A stretch of DNA of 64,000 nucleotides from Prevotella sp. (GTDB lineage Bacteria; Bacteroidota; Bacteroidia; Bacteroidales; Bacteroidaceae). The notes below the pieces were generated by a model that was not told the DNA's origin, did not search any database, and saw nothing but the letters and a program-made list of their open reading frames with translations. The stretch spans positions 1 to 64,000 of the forward strand of contig JAEEHW010000108.1 of NCBI GenBank assembly GCA_016281055.1. The letters are read 5' to 3'. A program made the position numbers and the translations under genes. This document shows, piece by piece, positions 27,163 to 48,956 of the stretch (the first letter of the stretch is position 1; the number at the start of each line of letters is the position of its first letter).

Positions 27163-28950
27163 TTATTGTCCCAAGAACATATTCACTATCATGTTGGCAT
27201 CCGCCATCGTGATTGAACCATCACCGTTCACATCAGCTGTTTCCTTATCAAAGTCGGATGGCTTGTCGGTAGCAAGGAAGTAGTTCACCACGGCATTGGC
27301 ATCTGCCATTGTTATCGAACCGTCATGGTTCACGTCACCGGGCTGATATGTTACAGTCTTCTCTATCACCACTGCCGTACCGGCTACAGGCGTGAGCGTC
27401 GTTGTTGGATCAGACAGTTCCTTACCAAATGACAGCGACAACCTGCAGAAGGTGTAATAATCCGCTCCATCTAACTTGCCGTAATACGCAGTGCGCGACG
27501 GTGATGTCACCTCGTAGCCATCTGCTGCGATGAAACCACCGAGGGCCATGAAGCATCTCTCCGTACCTTTCACGCTGAGTTTTGAATTCGTACCACCTAC
27601 TTTCAATTTGGCGGGACATATCGTGGTGACTTCTCCTGTCTTGAAATTGTGTTGTATGGTTACCACACCCTGCATACCGTAGTGGCCAGCGGTGACGTTC
27701 ACAGTCGCATTGCCGTCGATGACAAGGTAGTTTACAGCAGTGTTTGTCATATTAATTCCGTGGATTTCACCAGTGATATTCAGCGTACCCGTACCATTTA
27801 TTATCAATGTCTTGCTGGCGTTCTTTATGCCTGTGCCTGCGGCTGACGATATGCTACAGTCGCCCGTCACGTTGATTTTTAATGAATCTATGCCATTTTC
27901 TATTGCGTAGCCACCTGCTAATGTCATCTCTGTTATGCTGGCATTCTCAAGGTACAGCGTCTTTGTTTTGTTGTCGTATGAAGCAGTGCCCGTAACGCCG
28001 GGGATTGCGGTGAGGTCACCCTCGTTTAAATTTGTCACAGTTTTGCCATTGACAATTATGTCGCGTTTTTCATGCTTGTAAGTAAAGTAACCAGTTTCCG
28101 GAGTCGCATAATTGATATCCAACTTGTCTGCTGCATAAGAAATTGCTCCTACTAGCGAACTACAGTCCTTAAACATATCTGTGCCGTCAGCACCTGTTGA
28201 TGTCCAAGAATCATTACAGTATATGGTTTTAAGGCCGCTACTACCACTAAACATATATAGTGCATTACGCATATTTGACACATTAAAGCTCGTTATATCA
28301 AGGACTTCCAATTTTGGACAATTACTAAACATACTTGACAGTACCCTGACACTTGATGTATTGAAATTACTTACATCAACAGACGTTAAGGAGGTGCAGC
28401 CGGCAAACATACCATTCATACCTGTCACTGAGGATGTATTAAAATTGCTGACATCAACACCTGTGATTTTCTTGCATGCTGCAAACATAAATGACATGTC
28501 AATTGCCTTGGAAGTATCAAAACCACCCACCTCAATATTTGTAAGATTGTAACAGTACTGAAACATTCCATAAAAATATCGGACGCTTGATGTGTTCAAA
28601 TAATTCAGGCCTTCTATATTCGTAATGTTTTGCATATTGGCAAACCAATTGTAGCAACTTCTTGGGGTCGCTGATGCAAAAGAACTGGTAAAGACCACCC
28701 TGTTAATCTGATATGCTAATTCTGACCATGGTGGCGATGTTTTTCCAGTGTCATCCACATTCCATACAATTCCTGTCGATGGCATCGCTCCATAACTAAA
28801 GGTCAAGATTCCTTCTTCTGACAAAGGGTTATAACTATACGATGCATAGGCAACAGGCTCTGTCAGGAATCCCTCTGCCTTAACATTCATCACGAATGTA
28901 AACACCAATACAAACAAAAATAAACTTTTTCTAAAAAAATTAGTGTACAT
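27163..28950 (-). CDS. DUF285 (BspA-like) surface protein with C-terminal type I dockerin repeats
   Basis: Repeated FNTSSVTGMNGMFAGCTSLTSVDVSNF; GDVNHDGSITMADANAVVNYFL...ADVNGDGSITMADANMIVNMFLGQ. Confidence 0.88.
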   Translation of the reverse strand: MYTNFFRKSLFLFVLVFTFVMNVKAEGFLTEPVAYASYSYNPLSEEGILTFSYGAMPSTGIVWNVDDTGKTSPPWSELAYQINRVVFTSSFASATPRSCYNWFANMQNITNIEGLNYLNTSSVRYFYGMFQYCYNLTNIEVGGFDTSKAIDMSFMFAACKKITGVDVSNFNTSSVTGMNGMFAGCTSLTSVDVSNFNTSSVRVLSSMFSNCPKLEVLDITSFNVSNMRNALYMFSGSSGLKTIYCNDSWTSTGADGTDMFKDCSSLVGAISYAADKLDINYATPETGYFTYKHEKRDIIVNGKTVTNLNEGDLTAIPGVTGTASYDNKTKTLYLENASITEMTLAGGYAIENGIDSLKINVTGDCSISSAAGTGIKNASKTLIINGTGTLNITGEIHGINMTNTAVNYLVIDGNATVNVTAGHYGMQGVVTIQHNFKTGEVTTICPAKLKVGGTNSKLSVKGTERCFMALGGFIAADGYEVTSPSRTAYYGKLDGADYYTFCRLSLSFGKELSDPTTTLTPVAGTAVVIEKTVTYQPGDVNHDGSITMADANAVVNYFLATDKPSDFDKETADVNGDGSITMADANMIVNMFLGQ

Positions 28951-28988
28951 AGCTTTTATTTTTTATGTTATCTTTCACATATATACGC

Positions 28989-29113
28989 AAAGCGTCCGCA
29001 CACGCAGCCATCAGGCTACGCATGCGGACGCATCATTTTTCTTTCCTATAAGAGGTTATTATATAGTGAGTGATATACAAATTATTGGATTGAGCAAATG
29101 TTTGCCCAACTAA
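28989..29113 (-). promoter_or_regulatory. conserved upstream/leader region (copy A) with GCGTCCGCA/TGCGGACGC hairpin
   Basis: Near-identical to 32016-32135; hairpin arms 28992-29000 and 29023-29031. Confidence 0.7.
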
Positions 29114-29427
29114 ATTTGGCACAATAGCGTTATTTAACGTATTTCGTATCATACACAAATATTTACCTTATTGCTAAACCACCTGCGCATTCTTCAATTC
29201 ATTCTGCAGGAATGAATAGACATAACCTGCGCTCTGGTAATACAGCCCCGACGTATCATCTTGCAGACGGTCAAACGTTTCTGAAGTATAAAGTACATCC
29301 AGGGCTTCCTGATCAGTCTAAACGTAATTCTATCCCTCCCCCCACGGGGGTTGCTCTCCCCCGCGAAACGGGGGAGCCAGGAGGGGGTGAAAAGACTATT
29401 GAACAGGAGGGGGCTTACTGATGGGGC

Positions 29428-31953
29428 CTACTGCCCCAGGAACATATTCACTATCATGTTGGCATCCGCCATCGTGATTGAACCGTCACCGTTCACATCA
29501 GCTGTTTCCTTGTCAAAGTCGGAAGGCTTGCCGGTAGCAAGGAAGTAGTTCACCACGGCATTGGCATCAGCCATCGTTATCACTCCGTCATGGTTCACGT
29601 CGCCGAGGATGTATGGTTTCTCTATCACCACTGCGGTGCCTGCTACAGGAACAAGAGTCAAGACTAACGTACCTGTTCCTGTTTTCCCACTTCCTGACGT
29701 TGTTGCAACAACTCGGCAGAAGGTGTTTGAAGCAGGATCGAAAGCAGTGCGTGACGGTGATGTCACCTTGTAGCCGTCGGCAGGTTCAAAGGCTTTGAGA
29801 GTCAGGAAACTCTGCTCCGTACCCTTGACGCTGAGCTTTGAGTTTTCGCCGCCGACCTTCAGTGTAGTGGTGTAAATAGTGTCTGTCCTGTCCAGTAAGC
29901 GTTTAACAACTTCCCTGCCTACCATGCCGTATGTATCGGCTTCTACGTTCACCGTCACCTTGCCGTCTATGTCGAGGCTGTTGGCGGCGGTGCTGTTCAT
30001 CACTATACCTGCAACACTGGCATCAATGTTCAGCGTGCCTGTGCCGCCGATTACCACGTTGCGTGAGTTGCTGTGTAAGCCTACGCCTTTGCTTGAGGAT
30101 ATGTTGCAGTCGCCAGTTACGTTTATGCGCAGCGTGTCGAGGGTGGTTTTGATGGCGTAGCCGCCTGCAAAGGAATTTTCCGTTATGCTGGCATCTTCAA
30201 GGTACAGCGTCTTTGTTTCAGGGTCGTATGAGGCAGTGCCCGTTACGCCGGGGATGGTGTTGAGTATGCTGTTGTTGGCTGCCGTCACTTGCGTGCCGTT
30301 GAGTGTCAAGTCGTAAGGCTCAGCATATTCTATCGTCACCCTTTTTATCTCGTTGCCGTCTATGTCAACAATGGTGCCGTTTGAGTATTTTGCTCCCAGC
30401 GGATCCATTATTGCGAGGTTGTCGGTCAGCGTCAGTGCTCCTAAGTTTTTGCAACTGCCCGTCGTGCCTGATATACTCAGTTTTGTGTCCTTGCCGCTTA
30501 CCTTTAATGCCTTACATCCGTTGATGCCATACTCTCGGTAGCCTTGTATGTCAAGTTGCACGCCGTCTGTTACGGTTAGGCTGCCTAAGTTCTGTAACAA
30601 GACTACGGCGTTTACGCCTACAACCGTCAGTTTGCCACTGCCCTTTATCACTACATGTGATGTGCCAGTAATGCCTGCGAGTTTCGTTGAACCTATCATG
30701 CATTCGCCATTTACCACGATGTAGAGAGAGTCGAGGTTGGTCTGTATGGCAGAGGTATCGTTCGCAGCAGTGAAAATCATGGCATCTGTCAGTGTCAGTG
30801 TCTTGGAAGGGTTGTCGTATCTGGCAGTGCCTTGAACGCCGTCAATTTTTGTGAGGTCACGCTCGTTAATGTCTGTCACTGTCGTGCCATTGATGCAGAG
30901 TGGGCGTTCGTCCGCTGCCTTGTACGTAAAATAACCGGTCGTCGGATTGGCGTATGTTACGTCTGTCTTGCCTGCTGTATATTCTATTCCGCCTCTTAAT
31001 TTCATACAACCTACAAACATAAGGACAGAACGTTCACAACTCCAAGAATCATTACAATATATTGTTGCAAGTACTGAGCAACCATAAAACATATCGCTCA
31101 TATCATTGACATTAGAAGTATCAAAACCTCTTAGATCAAGACTTGTAAGACTTGAGCAGTATTGAAACATATTCTTCATAGAAGATACATTCGAAGTGTC
31201 AAAATTACTGACATCGAGGAGTGTCAGACTCGAGCAACCATCAAACATGCCTGTCATACTACTGACCCAATAAGTATTGAAACCGCTGACATCAAGGGTT
31301 GTAAGAGCACGACAATCAAAAAACATATTGCTCATATTCGTTACTCTTTTCGTATAAAAGCCACTGACATCAAGGGTTGTAAGAGCAGAGCAGAATGCAA
31401 ACATATATTTCATATCATTGACGTGAGCGGTGTAAAAACCGCTTACATCGAGGACTTTGAGCTTTGAGCAACGTTCGAACATATGACTCATATCACTGAC
31501 CTCAGAAGTACTGAAACCGCTAACATCAAGGGTTGTAAGATTGTAACAACCACTGAACATATACCCCATGTTCGTCACATAAGAGGTGTTAAGATATTCT
31601 ATTCCTTCTATCTCTCTTAAATTTCTCATATCACGAAACCAACCATAGCAATTCATAGGACGGCATTGTGAAAAAGAAGAGTCAAAGACAACTTTTTTAA
31701 CAGAATTTCTTTTATTAAACCATACAGGAGTATCATCTTTGACCTCCGTACTATAAATGTAAGTGTCAATATCATAAAAGTAAGTATTCGGCGAACTTGA
31801 TTTCTCAGTAAACTTAAACGTTAAAGTACTATCATTTTCGTCAAGCACTGCATAATAAACACAATCTGTTGCTGCATTAACACTCACGACCATTGTCATG
31901 AGCATCATAACAATTAGAAAAATTCGATTCTTTAAGTTAGTCTTTCTTTTCAT
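29428..31953 (-). CDS. DUF285 (BspA-like) surface protein with C-terminal type I dockerin repeats, paralogue
   Basis: FDTSNVSSMKNMFQYCSSLTSLDLRGFDTSNV repeats; dockerin tail nearly identical to the neighbouring gene. Confidence 0.88.
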   Translation of the reverse strand: MKRKTNLKNRIFLIVMMLMTMVVSVNAATDCVYYAVLDENDSTLTFKFTEKSSSPNTYFYDIDTYIYSTEVKDDTPVWFNKRNSVKKVVFDSSFSQCRPMNCYGWFRDMRNLREIEGIEYLNTSYVTNMGYMFSGCYNLTTLDVSGFSTSEVSDMSHMFERCSKLKVLDVSGFYTAHVNDMKYMFAFCSALTTLDVSGFYTKRVTNMSNMFFDCRALTTLDVSGFNTYWVSSMTGMFDGCSSLTLLDVSNFDTSNVSSMKNMFQYCSSLTSLDLRGFDTSNVNDMSDMFYGCSVLATIYCNDSWSCERSVLMFVGCMKLRGGIEYTAGKTDVTYANPTTGYFTYKAADERPLCINGTTVTDINERDLTKIDGVQGTARYDNPSKTLTLTDAMIFTAANDTSAIQTNLDSLYIVVNGECMIGSTKLAGITGTSHVVIKGSGKLTVVGVNAVVLLQNLGSLTVTDGVQLDIQGYREYGINGCKALKVSGKDTKLSISGTTGSCKNLGALTLTDNLAIMDPLGAKYSNGTIVDIDGNEIKRVTIEYAEPYDLTLNGTQVTAANNSILNTIPGVTGTASYDPETKTLYLEDASITENSFAGGYAIKTTLDTLRINVTGDCNISSSKGVGLHSNSRNVVIGGTGTLNIDASVAGIVMNSTAANSLDIDGKVTVNVEADTYGMVGREVVKRLLDRTDTIYTTTLKVGGENSKLSVKGTEQSFLTLKAFEPADGYKVTSPSRTAFDPASNTFCRVVATTSGSGKTGTGTLVLTLVPVAGTAVVIEKPYILGDVNHDGVITMADANAVVNYFLATGKPSDFDKETADVNGDGSITMADANMIVNMFLGQ

Positions 31954-42097: not shown

Positions 42098-45000
42098 TTA
42101 TTTCACCATTACCTTGCGCACAGTGCCGTCATTCATGCGGATGATGTTGAATCCACGCTTCAGACCGTTGGTCTGACGGCCTATGATGTCATACGTGCCG
42201 GCAGACTTGTACGCTGCGTTCTTGACTGTCTTGACATCCGTTGGGTTCGGAGCCTCGCCTCCAAGGTTGTCCATGCAGAAGTATGTTGCGGTGGTAGGAC
42301 CGTAACTGTTCTTCTTAGTGGTTTCAAACGTGAAGGACAGGTCTTTCACCGTACCCAGTTCAGTGAGGTCAACCCATGTCCACTCATTGATGTAGTAGCG
42401 GTCAGCCTCGTCGTCAGCGCGGTAGTCAGCCAGATATACGTCGATGCTGTTGCCGTTGTTGGCAGTGATGGTCAGCTTCAGGAAGTCGCCCTTGCCGAAT
42501 GGAAGTCCACCGTCGTCGCTCAGTCCGTCGCCGTTCACGATGTTGTCAATGGTGTAAGCATCGTTGTTGATGTAGAAACCACTGATTACCTCACCGTCAG
42601 GGTTGTTCATGACGTAAATCTTACCACCGTAGTAACCAGGATATGCCACCATGTAGTTCTCTGAACCCTCTGCACCGCCGCCAGTAGCGTTCTTCCACTG
42701 TCCGAGGAAGTAACCGTCGAAGTTGGTCGATGTCATGTTGGTATAACCGTAGTTGCCCCAGTAGCCGCCGTAGTCAGGCGAATAGAAGTTGTCGAACTTG
42801 AATGAACCGCTCACAAACGAGCCAAATGGCAGGTTGCGGCCGTCCTCATAGCTTTCCTCCTCCAGGTAAAGGTCTTCAAACGTAGCTGCAGCCATGTCAC
42901 CGGTAACGATGACGCGCACGGTAGCGGTGTCTGCCCCACCTTCACTGTCGGTTACGAGGAAGATGTAGTCGGTGCACTGTGTAGGTTCGTCCGTTGTCAT
43001 GAAGATGTCGTCAGGCATCTCGTCGAAGGTCTCGGACAGCAATACGTTGTGCTTCTGGTCCATCCATGTCAGGGTGTAAGGAGCTGTGCGCTCGTCAACC
43101 GTCACCATAGCCATCAGTGTAACCGTTGAACCGGCTTCCATTGTCTCTTCCTCGTCAGAGTTGTTGATGAAGACCATAGCCTCTGGCTTCTCCAACGGCA
43201 CAGGTGTTACCTCCATTGTGAATGCTGCGGTCTGGCTTGCAGCCTCAGCGGCGTTGCCACGCAGGCTGACGGGCAGCATGTAAACCACATACTCCTCGCC
43301 GTCGGTGAGGTTGCTGATGGTGATTGATGTCTCTGTGTTGGCTGCCACATCCTGTTTGGTGTCGGCAGCTGCCAGTTCATCAGTAGTAGGAGCATCCTCC
43401 GTAGATTTCTTCACGATGTAATATACAGTAGAAGCCATGTCGGTCTTCACTGATACCGAAGCCACACCGTCAATGTGGCTAACCACTGCGGGATAGCCCT
43501 CCTGCATTACAGGAGCACCCACTGCATCAGCGTCAAACTCATATGCACCGATGGTGATGTCCTCCTCAGGACGAGCCTTGCCGTTGATGTCGGTGGTAAC
43601 GTATGCAAGTGCAAGTGCCTTCTGTAAATCACCTTCGAGGTTGTCGGCAGGTTCAAGGACTGCATCACTCAGGAAGTTCACCTTCTTGTTGATGCTGCCT
43701 GTTGCGCCCGTATTCTCCACGAAGGCGGCGAAGTCACCATTAGTGCCGGATGAGGCACGGAAGAAGGTTGCACCTGCAGTGTAGATAATGTTGTTCTGGA
43801 ACGTAATCTTGCCGATATTCTCATCATTATAGAGGTTTACTGCATAGCCACTGCCCTCGTTCTGTATGATGTTGTTAATTACGTTCACGTTCTCACCGTT
43901 GAGCTTGTCAAGCAGCCAGAGTGCCACACCCGTATTCTCGCCGTTCAAACGGATGGTGTTGTTGGCGATATATACGTTGCTTACAGCCTTGTCGGTGAGT
44001 TTTACGCCACCGTAACTTGTATTGAGTGATGTCACGTTGACTACGTTGTTGGCAATGATGATAGGAGCTTCGGCAGTACCTGCCATCTGGCGCAGATACA
44101 TACCTGCGGTGTATTTAGACGGTGCGAGGTTGAAGGTGTTGCCCGTAATCTCACTTGACTGACTGTAGGTATCGCGCAAAGTAAAGTCAAGCGCACCCAT
44201 AGTGGCGTTTGTCGTAACTTCGTCAGTCATGATGATGGTGTTGTTCTTCACCTTCACGCCGAGCTCATCGTAGCAGTATATAGCCTTTGAACCCTGGTTC
44301 TTGAAGGTGTTGCCCTCAATCACACCGCCCACTTCCTTAGGCAGTGCCACATAACTTGTACCGCCCATGCTGACACCGATATATCCACCTTCGAGCAGCG
44401 AGTTGCTGACGGTAAGATAGTCGTTGTTGCAGTTTGCCACATCCTGTGCATAGTGTCCTATCAGATAGATGTCCTGCTGATTGCTTGTGGTAGTGGCAGC
44501 GTGTATGTAGCAGTCGTCAATCGTGACATGGCGACTCTGGTTCTTCACCATCACCACTGCATCGTAGTTCAGGTCGGTGGTGGTAACCTCCACGCCTTTC
44601 AGCGTGACATAGCTGGCTTCATAGAACGTAACAACGCCATATACCTTAGAATACTGATCGTCGCTGTAGCCTCCAGAGGTGTACTGGTCGTGATATATCT
44701 TCACGTCACGCTGTCCGCTTTCACTCTGCAGTGTCAGAGTGTTGGTTGCACCCATACCCTTTATATAAGGTATGCGCACTCGCTCATTATATTCACCTGC
44801 ACGGATGTTGAGCGTAACAGGACCTTCTATGCCGAGTGAACCAAGGTCGTCGATGGCACCCTGTATGGTAGCGTAATCGGCATCTGCACCACCTACGGTG
44901 TATGTGCCGCTCTTGCCCTGTGCCACACTCACGGATGCAATGACAGGAACGTCGCCGTCACTTACGGTTACGGTCTCGTCACCCGCAACGATGCTTGCAA

Positions 45001-48000
45001 GGCTTGCAGTGGCTGCCTGACCTACCGTAGCATCGCTGTTAATGTCGTATGCCACCCAGAAATAGTATGTGCCTGGGGTTGATATGGTGCATGTGCCGTT
45101 GAACTCCTCGTTTGCAGAGAAGCCATCTACCGTACCAGTCTGATAGATGTGCTGTGCAGATACACACGCATTGTCAGCATCAGCGAAGTTGAAGCCAGTG
45201 ATGTCGAGCGGTGCCTTCTCACCGTCAGCCTCCACTGTTATCTTCAGCATACGGGTGTCGGTCTGTCCCTTCAGTACCTCGCTTACGCTGATGTCTTCAG
45301 TTGTCACGCTCTTCACATATACATCCTGCTTGGTGTATGCGCTGACCTCGATGGCGAAGCCTGCCGGGCCGCTGGTGCCGGTAATGAACTGGAGCGTTAT
45401 CTTGCCGTCCTCGCTTGTGGCGCGTATCGGCTGTTTCTCCGGCATATTGTCATACATAGAGTACTGTGCATCGTAGTCGCCCTCGGCATTGTCCTTCTGG
45501 AATACATTAAGCTTCGATGTGTAATATACATCCCATGCCTTGAACGTAAGCTGTATGCAGTCGGCTGGTGACTGAGGCACGAACGTCACGGTGCCGTTGA
45601 AGTTGGCAGAAGCGTTGCCGTCGGCTCCACCGTCATCGTAGAGCATTATCGGCTTACCTTCTGTAACAGTAAACACTCCGTTGTCACCGTTCTGCAGCAG
45701 ATACATCAATTTCAGCGTGCGTGAGCCTTCAGGGTCGCCAGCCTTTACAGATTTATCCTCTGTACCTATTACAACAGCCGTAACCTTGGCATCAATGACC
45801 GACTCAGGGATGGCTTCAGAACTTGCGTCAACCTTAACGGTGAACACGTTGCCACCCTCAGTAAGCGTTACTGCCTCGTCGAATGTCACCGTCACCTCTT
45901 CTGCAGCATCAGCCTCGCCAATCTTTGCATCGTCCTTCCAAACAGTGACCTTGCTGATGTTTGCCTCAGTGCCTTTCAGGTTTACCTTGATACCACCCAT
46001 CTGCAGTGGTTCGAGGTTGCCCTCTGTCTTCACGTTCACCGTGAGCAGTTCCTGGTTGGCTGCGCCCATAGAAGCAGCGGCAGTAGAAGCCTGTGCCACC
46101 TCGATGGTGTCAACAGCCATCGCTGATGGCTGGTATTCAGAAACTGTGGCCTTCCAACCCTTACTATAATAGCCATAAGAAGAATTAGGATTGAAGACAA
46201 CAGTCAGAGCACCGTCAGCAGCCGATGAGCGAATTACGCTTCCAGGACCCGTTGACTGTTGGCTGTTGTCGTTAAGTTCCCACAGCAAGGTTCCAGTGGT
46301 GCCCTGTCCGGCGTAAATCTTGAATACAGACTTGGTGCCGTAGGTGGTAGATGAATACGTCACATCAAACTCGCTGAAGTCTATCTGGCAAACCATGCCA
46401 TCATGCTTAGGCACAAACACATTCACGCGGTTGTCTGTACCAGCCTCGCAGTAAGAATTGTATTCCGATGCTTTCTTGGTTTCGAAACCCAGAGAGCCGT
46501 TGACAGTCTTTGTTACTGTGCCCTGACTTGCATGGCTAATCGCAATGTTCTTCACCGTACGCACAGATGCCTCGGCAGTCACTGCCTCTGTTGTTGCAGC
46601 ATTATTGACAAGTGCCGTAACACTTGCAAGCTGCGCACTGACAGACTGGTCATTGAGTGCCTCGTCGCTGATGGAATATTTCAGAGTGAAAGCATTGTCA
46701 CCCTCAACGAGTGGCTGTGCCTCATCGAGTGTGACGGTGAACGACTCACCTGTAACATCAGCCTCTCCCACCTTCGTGGTACCGAAGTAAAGCGCTGCTT
46801 TTGTCACGAGTGCACTGTTCTCGCCTGCGGTGAACGTCATCTTGGTAACCTGTATGGCTGGTTCAGTGTCTTTAGTCTTCACGTTGATGGTAAGCATATC
46901 CTGCTCTGCATCACCTGCTGCCACTGTCTCCGTAGATGCTGCAGCGGTCGTGATGCCGTCGAAGGTCATCGCCTGCGGAGTGAACAGACTCACGCTTGCC
47001 TCAAAGCCGTCGGCGGCAGTCGTTGACGAAGCATCGCTGAACAGCACAACTGTCAGCGAACCGTCTTCTGCAGTCGAGCGTACTATGCCTGTCTCGTCCT
47101 TCTGCAGTGTCTTGATAAGGTTGGCGTCGCTCACCTCCTGACCGTTATATATGCGCAGCTCCTGATTGTAGTATGTGCCGTGCCATATATTGTTAGAAGT
47201 AAAGTTCACCATCACTTTCTTGCCTTCCTCGCCAGAGAGGAATGTCACCTGTCCGTTGGTTTTTGCCTGTATGCCTCCGTCCTTGCCTCCTTCATCGAAG
47301 AATGCCAGCGAGGTTTCGCCTACGGTGACGGTCTGTGCCTCACTGCCCATAATGACGATGGCAGGGTTTACCACTTCCACGCTTGTTGCAGACGTGAATG
47401 GTGCTATGCCATCAGCCTGGCCAGTCGATGCAATCTTTGTTATGTCCACCTGTGCTTTTGCTCCCACTGCTGACGTGGCAAGGAAGTCACCGGCAATGGT
47501 GAATGTCGTTGTACCGTCAGAGAGAGCCTCGTCCAATGCAAACGCATAGTTCTCACCGTCAGCGCTGACAGTGGCGCTTACCTGTGTACCGTCCTTGAAG
47601 AGTTTCAGTGCCAACGGGTCGAAAGCGTTGTCGTTCTGCGTCATCGTGAAACCGATGGTTGTCACATGGTCGGGGTTCATCACACCCGTAGCAGTTACAT
47701 AGGCGTTTGCAAGCGCCACGTTGTTTCTCGACGTGAGCGCACCGCCCACATCGTCGTAGTTGCTTCCGGCGCCTGTCACTGTCATGTCTTCCAGTGTCAC
47801 GCACTTCACCTTTGCCACCCAACCGTCACACGCCTTGGCATATTTCCACAGCATGCCCACGGAGAGCGAGCCGTCAGCAGCTGCCGACGTATAGGTCTTG
47901 TTGGAATACGTACCGTCGAGTTTTTCGAGCACGGTGCCGTCGGGCAGCGTGGAAGTGCTGCTCAGCGTGGCATTGTATTCGAAAGAACCCTCCGAATCAG

Positions 48001-48322
48001 GGTCTCCGCTATACACCCACACTTCGCCCATCCAACCTGTACCGTCGTTGGTGACATCGATGCTCTCGAAGGTGATTTGAATACTCATACCTTCCGCAGG
48101 TTTGAACACGGTCAGCGATCGCGAGTTGTTCAAACTACTGCTCGCAATACTTTCCGTGCCTTTCCAGTCGTAGAAGGTAATTTCCTGGTCGGCGGCCACA
48201 TCTATGACCTGCCGTCCCCATTGCTCCTGCAGCACAGTGTTGCCGTCCTGCGATGCCCATGCGGACACGCCGACGACTAACGTCAGCAGCAAAAGCAATG
48301 TTTTCTGAAACATTGTCTTCAT
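42098..48322 (-). CDS. giant surface protein: tandem CUB-like modules, right-handed beta-helix, Ig-like, DUF4465, T9SS-type C-terminus
   Basis: Four modules with 'FYDWKG/FFDEGG/LYDDGG...VTF' pattern, 'YATIQGAIDDLGSLGIEGPVTLNIRAGEYNE', DUF4465-like 'YLADYRADDEADRYYINEWTWVDLTELGTVKDLSFTFET...YFCMDNLGG'. Confidence 0.8.
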   Translation of the reverse strand: MKTMFQKTLLLLLTLVVGVSAWASQDGNTVLQEQWGRQVIDVAADQEITFYDWKGTESIASSSLNNSRSLTVFKPAEGMSIQITFESIDVTNDGTGWMGEVWVYSGDPDSEGSFEYNATLSSTSTLPDGTVLEKLDGTYSNKTYTSAAADGSLSVGMLWKYAKACDGWVAKVKCVTLEDMTVTGAGSNYDDVGGALTSRNNVALANAYVTATGVMNPDHVTTIGFTMTQNDNAFDPLALKLFKDGTQVSATVSADGENYAFALDEALSDGTTTFTIAGDFLATSAVGAKAQVDITKIASTGQADGIAPFTSATSVEVVNPAIVIMGSEAQTVTVGETSLAFFDEGGKDGGIQAKTNGQVTFLSGEEGKKVMVNFTSNNIWHGTYYNQELRIYNGQEVSDANLIKTLQKDETGIVRSTAEDGSLTVVLFSDASSTTAADGFEASVSLFTPQAMTFDGITTAAASTETVAAGDAEQDMLTINVKTKDTEPAIQVTKMTFTAGENSALVTKAALYFGTTKVGEADVTGESFTVTLDEAQPLVEGDNAFTLKYSISDEALNDQSVSAQLASVTALVNNAATTEAVTAEASVRTVKNIAISHASQGTVTKTVNGSLGFETKKASEYNSYCEAGTDNRVNVFVPKHDGMVCQIDFSEFDVTYSSTTYGTKSVFKIYAGQGTTGTLLWELNDNSQQSTGPGSVIRSSAADGALTVVFNPNSSYGYYSKGWKATVSEYQPSAMAVDTIEVAQASTAAASMGAANQELLTVNVKTEGNLEPLQMGGIKVNLKGTEANISKVTVWKDDAKIGEADAAEEVTVTFDEAVTLTEGGNVFTVKVDASSEAIPESVIDAKVTAVVIGTEDKSVKAGDPEGSRTLKLMYLLQNGDNGVFTVTEGKPIMLYDDGGADGNASANFNGTVTFVPQSPADCIQLTFKAWDVYYTSKLNVFQKDNAEGDYDAQYSMYDNMPEKQPIRATSEDGKITLQFITGTSGPAGFAIEVSAYTKQDVYVKSVTTEDISVSEVLKGQTDTRMLKITVEADGEKAPLDITGFNFADADNACVSAQHIYQTGTVDGFSANEEFNGTCTISTPGTYYFWVAYDINSDATVGQAATASLASIVAGDETVTVSDGDVPVIASVSVAQGKSGTYTVGGADADYATIQGAIDDLGSLGIEGPVTLNIRAGEYNERVRIPYIKGMGATNTLTLQSESGQRDVKIYHDQYTSGGYSDDQYSKVYGVVTFYEASYVTLKGVEVTTTDLNYDAVVMVKNQSRHVTIDDCYIHAATTTSNQQDIYLIGHYAQDVANCNNDYLTVSNSLLEGGYIGVSMGGTSYVALPKEVGGVIEGNTFKNQGSKAIYCYDELGVKVKNNTIIMTDEVTTNATMGALDFTLRDTYSQSSEITGNTFNLAPSKYTAGMYLRQMAGTAEAPIIIANNVVNVTSLNTSYGGVKLTDKAVSNVYIANNTIRLNGENTGVALWLLDKLNGENVNVINNIIQNEGSGYAVNLYNDENIGKITFQNNIIYTAGATFFRASSGTNGDFAAFVENTGATGSINKKVNFLSDAVLEPADNLEGDLQKALALAYVTTDINGKARPEEDITIGAYEFDADAVGAPVMQEGYPAVVSHIDGVASVSVKTDMASTVYYIVKKSTEDAPTTDELAAADTKQDVAANTETSITISNLTDGEEYVVYMLPVSLRGNAAEAASQTAAFTMEVTPVPLEKPEAMVFINNSDEEETMEAGSTVTLMAMVTVDERTAPYTLTWMDQKHNVLLSETFDEMPDDIFMTTDEPTQCTDYIFLVTDSEGGADTATVRVIVTGDMAAATFEDLYLEEESYEDGRNLPFGSFVSGSFKFDNFYSPDYGGYWGNYGYTNMTSTNFDGYFLGQWKNATGGGAEGSENYMVAYPGYYGGKIYVMNNPDGEVISGFYINNDAYTIDNIVNGDGLSDDGGLPFGKGDFLKLTITANNGNSIDVYLADYRADDEADRYYINEWTWVDLTELGTVKDLSFTFETTKKNSYGPTTATYFCMDNLGGEAPNPTDVKTVKNAAYKSAGTYDIIGRQTNGLKRGFNIIRMNDGTVRKVMVK

Positions 48323-48423
48323 TGTTTTATAAAAAAATAAATAGAACCTTAGCCTATATGTAAAGGTGTAAGTTGTTCCATAGTGCCTAACCCACGAGCG
48401 CTACTATGGTTGTTAACATGATA

Positions 48424-48575
48424 TTGGCAGGTATTCTGACTTCCTCCAGCTGTCATTGCCTTCCCACAAAGTCCACAAGGACTGTGCAGTGGCTGTTGTT
48501 AATGACGCTATAACAGAGGTTACAGCAGCGGGACTGTTCAGGATTCTCACCTGATTCCCTTTTAAGCATCGGCGG
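48424..48575 (-). ncRNA. cobalamin (AdoCbl-type) riboswitch
   Basis: Minus strand reads GGGAATCAGGTGAGAATCCTGAACAGTCCCGCTGCTGTAA...ACAGCCACTG...GTGGGAAGG...GGAAGTCAGAATACCTGCC: B12 box and conserved core. Confidence 0.93.
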
Positions 48576-48956
48576 CATGATAGTCATGCTGCGTCAGCAC
48601 CAAATCTGTACAATGTTGTTGTGCGAAGCAACTAATTCTTCGCTTTGTCGATATTGCAAGTGCAAAGTTACAAACTTTTCCTGAAACCACAAAATGTTTT
48701 TGTTTTCTATTATCATTAATCCTCTTTATTATTTGCAGGTCGTCCGGCGATGTTAGAAGACGCTTCCCTAAACAAGAAAACGTCGAAAGTACCGAGCGAA
48801 CGACGTTAAGACCATACAATATGGAGGAGAATTAACTTCGTACCGCGAGATTTCTTTTCCTATTTGACCATCCCCAAACCCCATTAAAATACAAGGTTGA
48901 CACAAAAACGAAATAAAACGAAACGTAAAATAGAACAACAAATAAAAGATTATTTT

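Follow-up and report, generated by a model that had tools for sequence, protein, structure and literature searches.

A 64,000-nucleotide stretch of contig JAEEHW010000108.1 of a gut bacterium, Prevotella sp., hereafter called the window, carries on its minus strand a cobalamin riboswitch followed directly by the gene for a very large protein with a DUF4465 domain near its C terminus. This protein is referred to here as the giant. The features of the locus are as follows, with coordinates given as positions in the window and the evidence in brackets.

48663 to 48693, minus strand: likely Bacteroidota promoter, TTTG (48693-48690) and TAACTTTG (48670-48663) [read from the sequence]
48409 to 48619, minus strand: cobalamin riboswitch aptamer [Rfam RF00174; also clade model R1]
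48370 to 48406, minus strand: probable expression-platform hairpin, CCATAGT...CTCGTGGGTTAGG...ACTATGG, just 3' of the aptamer [loop motif class]
42098 to 48322, minus strand: predicted secreted giant protein of 2074 amino acids, BtuJ-type (DUF4465) [open reading frame (ORF) and Pfam; 33 homologous giants]
48251 to 48322, minus strand: signal peptide, residues 1-24 (MKTMFQKTLLLLLTLVVGVSAWAS), lacking a lipobox cysteine [read from the translation]
44947 to 48250, minus strand: N-terminal modular rod, residues 25-1125, with BNR_assoc_N at 739-854 and repeated jellyroll/CUB-like modules [Pfam]
43525 to 44917, minus strand: right-handed beta-helix, about residues 1136-1599 [Beta_helix PF13229 in homologs; fold model]
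42902 to 43524, minus strand: two FN3/immunoglobulin (Ig)-like spacer domains, about residues 1600-1807 [strands in the model; FN3-type Foldseek matches]
42251 to 42901, minus strand: predicted B12-binding DUF4465 (BtuJ) domain, residues 1808-2024, with Y1923, T2011 and Y2014 [Pfam, PDB profile, Foldseek]
42101 to 42199, minus strand: C-terminal sorting-type tail of 33 residues, 2042-2074 (YDIIGRQTNGLKRGFNIIRMNDGTVRKVMVK) [tail profile, E 1.7e-13]

The riboswitch and its leader

An Rfam covariance search matches the full RF00174 model (1-189) with 86.8 bits (E 4.9e-20; gathering cut-off 31.5 bits). An earlier, sequence-only reading of this DNA had called a cobalamin riboswitch at 48424-48575, which is the core of the match, and the Infernal check against Rfam that it proposed thus returns the complete model. 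Clade model R1, which had the window riboswitch among its training sequences, matches with 122 bits. The ATG of the giant gene lies 86 nucleotides downstream of the 3' end of the riboswitch, with nothing coding in between; the sequence-only reading had put the distance at approximately 100 nucleotides and had likewise seen neither btuB nor btuG there. The adjacency is not attributable to chance, because the whole genome holds only three cobalamin riboswitches in 3.17 Mb; by our own arithmetic, the expectation of a same-strand riboswitch within 100 nucleotides upstream of a given gene is about 5e-5. By analogy with its family, the leader RNA would bind B12 and repress the downstream gene.

Promoters of Bacteroidota follow the consensus TTTG at -33 and TAnnTTTG at -7, and the TTTG and TAACTTTG elements upstream of the aptamer are likely a promoter of this type. 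The loop class of CTCGTGGGTTAGG is found after 51 of the clade's 71 cobalamin riboswitches, compared with 5.3 expected in shuffles, this looser class having been picked once the sequences had been inspected; a strict motif for one hairpin loop picked up only 5 of 70 riboswitches. Because the loop class recurs in this way, the regulatory hairpin is probably conserved in the clade as well, and its loop might form the L5-L13 kissing interaction.

The giant protein

The length and limits of the ORF are as the sequence-only reading had given them, and its claim of a C-terminal DUF4465-like domain is borne out by a Pfam match of PF14717 (DUF4465) to residues 1851-2020 (143.7 bits against a cut-off of 25, E 9.8e-42). 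The same reading had considered the domain to be BtuH-type, which has to be corrected. DUF4465 is the domain of the BtuJ proteins BT_1491 and BT_1957 (PMC12751083, PMC13398666), whereas BtuH (BT_1956; PMC8941943) has a different domain, and a PDB search with the giant gives only DUF4465 chains and not the BtuH structure 7BIZ. Profile matches of the domain in the PDB are 9HMU (E 1e-41), 9FCT (E 5e-25) and 9I2L (E 1.5e-9). When compared by Foldseek, the modelled domain has the augmented beta-jellyroll fold seen in the B12 complexes 9HMU and 9FCT, with template modelling (TM) scores of 0.79 on the target for 9HMU, 0.73-0.75 for 9FCT and 0.57-0.59 for 9I2L.

Papers on DUF4465/BtuJ binding, which date from 2025-2026, report tight cobalamin binding by BtuJ1 (BT_1491) and BtuJ2 (BT_1957) of B. 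thetaiotaomicron (PMC12751083) and B12 binding by all of eight divergent DUF4465 proteins (PMC13398666). The residues common to BtuJ1 and BtuJ2 that hydrogen-bond cobalamin are Y146, N241, T242 and Y245 in BtuJ1 numbering (PMC12751083, PMC13398666). Three of the four are kept in the giant, where profile and ortholog alignments equate Tyr146 with Tyr1923, Thr242 with Thr2011 and Tyr245 with Tyr2014. Sequence, model and analogy together strongly suggest that this domain binds cobamides tightly.

The fold model (m4900e7c2b6eb) covers residues 1125-2030, was made from an alignment of 22 homologs, and has a mean predicted local distance difference test score (pLDDT) of 87; it was used instead of a single-sequence fold of the DUF4465 domain, which had a mean pLDDT of 35. 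Repeating short strands over the beta-helix stretch of this model, along with the Beta_helix family in 10 of 20 homologs, uphold the right-handed beta-helix described before. The tandem CUB-like modules of the sequence-only reading fare less well. Pfam finds BNR_assoc_N, a sialidase-associated family, in two stretches of the giant (E 5.9e-13) and in all 20 homologs, and CUB in only 2 of these; Por_Secre_tail is found in 4 and DUF4465 in 19. A self-BLASTP of the giant reported no internal repeats in the rod.

The signal peptide appears to be type I, and because it lacks a lipobox, the giant would not be a surface lipoprotein. The profile for the C-terminal tail was built from 61 DUF4465 relatives, and the tail is common to these relatives and another window protein; it also occurs on unrelated ORFs across the genus. 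The genome encodes SprA (E 3e-212) and PorV (E 9e-64) of the type IX secretion system (T9SS), and the tail may direct export of the giant by this route.

Relatives, host genome and explanations

A near-full-length or long homolog of the giant occurs in 20 of the 150 genomes surveyed from this genus, the window's own included. Searching GTDB genomes yielded 78 loci (labelled by L-numbers), mostly from rumen Prevotellaceae and also from Prevotella koreensis, P. corporis and Hoylesella marshii. A covariance model trained on 22 cobalamin riboswitches of the clade has 71 matches in the loci; with a single exception, these share the strand of the DUF4465 gene. Within the DNA fetched, a riboswitch lies upstream on the same strand for 29 of 33 giants, within 500 nucleotides in 12 cases. 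The other four are also riboswitch-led: the riboswitch of L066 is in the longer stretch L044, and those of L060, L076 and L082 lie about 4.5-8.6 kb upstream, as placed by coordinates that also imply the shared contig. With all evidence pooled, an upstream same-strand cobalamin riboswitch accompanies 33 of 33 giants, mostly from Prevotellaceae. The order riboswitch-btuB-btuG-btuH-giant is found in L071, L073, L077 and L078, and in others btuH alone intervenes, with BtuH called by homology to 7BIZ and 8BLW. Relatives keep homologs of the giant in B12-uptake operons, and the protein is most likely a very large vitamin scavenger of the cell surface. At 80% identity over 2074 residues, L057 is the nearest relative; it retains the riboswitch, the gene and pectin-related neighbours.

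In L121, L111, L118, L116 and other loci, in many rumen Prevotellaceae, riboswitch-btuB-btuG is directly followed by proteins in which DUF4465 occurs two to four times in tandem. These proteins are likely multivalent B12 binders.

Statements about the host genome rest on family searches of a draft that is 97% complete. BtuB (best match BtuB1, 8BLW chain A, E 3e-111) and BtuG are encoded on contig C44, and genes for methylmalonyl-CoA mutase (MutAB) and a MetH-type synthase are present. In the draft assembly, a single in-frame TGA falls within the match to a MetH-type B12-dependent methionine synthase (G000:C9:6167-6994), reflecting either a sequencing error or a pseudogene. The searches found no btuH homolog and no match to CbiC, and the cell seemingly cannot synthesize the corrin ring or B12. 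Genes adjacent to cobalamin riboswitches are among the most strongly B12-responsive in X. ruminicola KHP1, a relative from the rumen (PMC11575231), and by analogy the giant is presumably B12-repressed.

No riboswitch was detected before the btuB-LRR-btuG operon of the genome, where the btuB leader has a tandem repeat (L006 5523-5690). Approximately 100 nucleotides downstream of this operon is a cobalamin riboswitch (L006:10184-10390), followed by approximately 430 nucleotides with no sizeable ORF and then a DegP-like gene. Another, on contig C22 (L007:11772-11983), precedes an operon encoding a biotin carboxylase, biotin carrier and carboxyltransferase, probably an acyl-CoA carboxylase, which is an unusual gene set for a B12-repressed element. 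Within the window, the neighbours of the giant are a SusC/SusD pair, rhamnogalacturonan lyases and pectate lyases. Farther away (27163-31953, minus strand), two LRR/DUF285 proteins each carry a terminal type I dockerin, which is unusual in Bacteroidota.

The explanation that we regard as highly probable is that the locus is a one-gene cobamide scavenging unit encoding a B12-repressed, T9SS-exported giant capture protein of the BtuJ type. At the level of sequence, the riboswitch, its adjacency to the gene, the identity of the domain, the kept pocket residues and the clade-wide linkage are established. The giant secreted B12-capture protein proposed by the sequence-only reading gains support from the riboswitch linkage, the btuB-btuG-btuH operons, the fold match to B12-bound structures and the pocket tyrosines. 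As judged from its family and from X. ruminicola KHP1, the leader would keep expression low while internal B12 is sufficient and release it upon starvation. The signal peptide would take the protein to the periplasm, and the tail would pass it through the T9SS across the outer membrane. At the surface or shed, the rod, beta-helix and Ig-like domains would hold the terminal DUF4465/BtuJ domain at a distance from the membrane, and the cobamides that it very likely binds might be handed to BtuB-BtuG encoded elsewhere, with methylmalonyl-CoA mutase and MetH as end users.

Several observations weigh against this explanation. BtuJ1 Asn241 corresponds to Thr2010 in the giant, and most orthologs have the same substitution. 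The apparent loss of corrin synthesis is read from CbiC, one family in an incomplete draft. The giant adjoins pectin-degradation genes, away from btuB. The tail, called T9SS-like in the sequence-only reading, fits its own profile and recurs in relatives, but the standard model (PF18962/TIGR04183) misses the giant. Finally, in a one-contig genome, L029 (1104-5607) has a riboswitch and then a 1432-residue scaffold lacking DUF4465. The scaffold is therefore B12-regulated even without this domain, which suggests a second function, perhaps attachment.

An adhesin could account for L029, with the rod and beta-helix attaching to plant cell wall or to B12-supplying microbes, and DUF4465 as an accessory. 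The scaffold makes up most of the protein, its beta-helix is the best conserved stretch (about 60-63% identity compared with 49% for DUF4465), and the neighbouring lyases also fit. However, 19 of 20 aligned giants carry DUF4465, often in duplicate, and giants sit in btuB-btuG-btuH operons. This explanation, under which B12 starvation would turn on attachment instead of capture, is unlikely. Accidental placement behind the riboswitch, for example by rearrangement, of a protein that binds polysaccharides in a pectin locus is very improbable. A SusC/SusD pair and lyases adjoin the giant, btuB-btuG is elsewhere in the genome, and the riboswitch downstream of btuG is unexplained; but many giants lie in btu operons, and among ten relatives checked, pectin neighbours are common only to L057. 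Chance adjacency is ruled out by the 33 of 33 linkage. A variant of the capture explanation that differs in location, a shed or vesicle-borne, siderophore-like scavenger, is a tentative possibility. Against it, lipopolysaccharide usually serves as the anchor of T9SS type A cargo, whereas the missing lipobox favors it. Also in its favor, BtuJ1 and BtuJ2 of B. thetaiotaomicron are vesicle-borne and deliver B12, and a siderophore-like role has been proposed for them (PMC12751083).

Comparison with known systems

Competition for B12 shapes the communities of gut and rumen, and the vitamin gates propionate production in rumen Prevotella-group bacteria (PMC11575231). Giants span rumen and oral Prevotellaceae and are a candidate answer to how B12-dependent members may scavenge cobamides. 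It is rather probable that Prevotellaceae evolved giant T9SS-exported cobamide catchers, in which a long rod bears one to three BtuJ domains, and a parallel class with up to four tandem BtuJ domains, in place of the small lipoproteins of Bacteroides. If so, giant and tandem BtuJ proteins would amount to a long-reach strategy, used across the clade, for B12 competition in rumen and mouth. The idea is testable in the cultured carriers Prevotella koreensis, Prevotella corporis and Hoylesella marshii; in the strains H. marshii DSM 16973 and P. corporis DSM 18810 the riboswitch precedes the giant.

The giant resembles BtuJ1 and BtuJ2 (DUF4465/IPR027828) in its domain, its fold, the DE-helix and HI-loop tyrosines and the cobalamin riboswitch upstream, and its relatives share the btuB/btuG context. 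In contrast, BtuJ1 and BtuJ2 are lipoproteins of a single domain, with crystallised chains 244-305 residues long, whereas the giant is a multi-module protein with a rod, beta-helix, Ig-like modules, type I signal peptide and T9SS-like tail, encoded by a lone gene. With the surface B12 binder BtuH2 (BT_1956, 7BIZ; PMC8941943) it shares a riboswitch locus and, by prediction, Ig-like spacers N-terminal to a C-terminal binding domain. However, the B12-binding domain of BtuH2 is different, and btuH homologs are separate neighbours of giants, with none found in the host genome. The closest solved DUF4465-B12 complex by both sequence and fold is D5EK51 of Coraliomargarita akajimensis (9HMU; PMC13398666), which, unlike the giant, is a small single-domain protein. 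DUF4465 proteins are familiar as small lipoproteins. The parts are known, and their assembly into secreted DUF4465 proteins of 1,800-2,800 amino acids tied to btuB, btuG and btuH is not described in the literature searched. In the giant, a known family takes on a new architecture.

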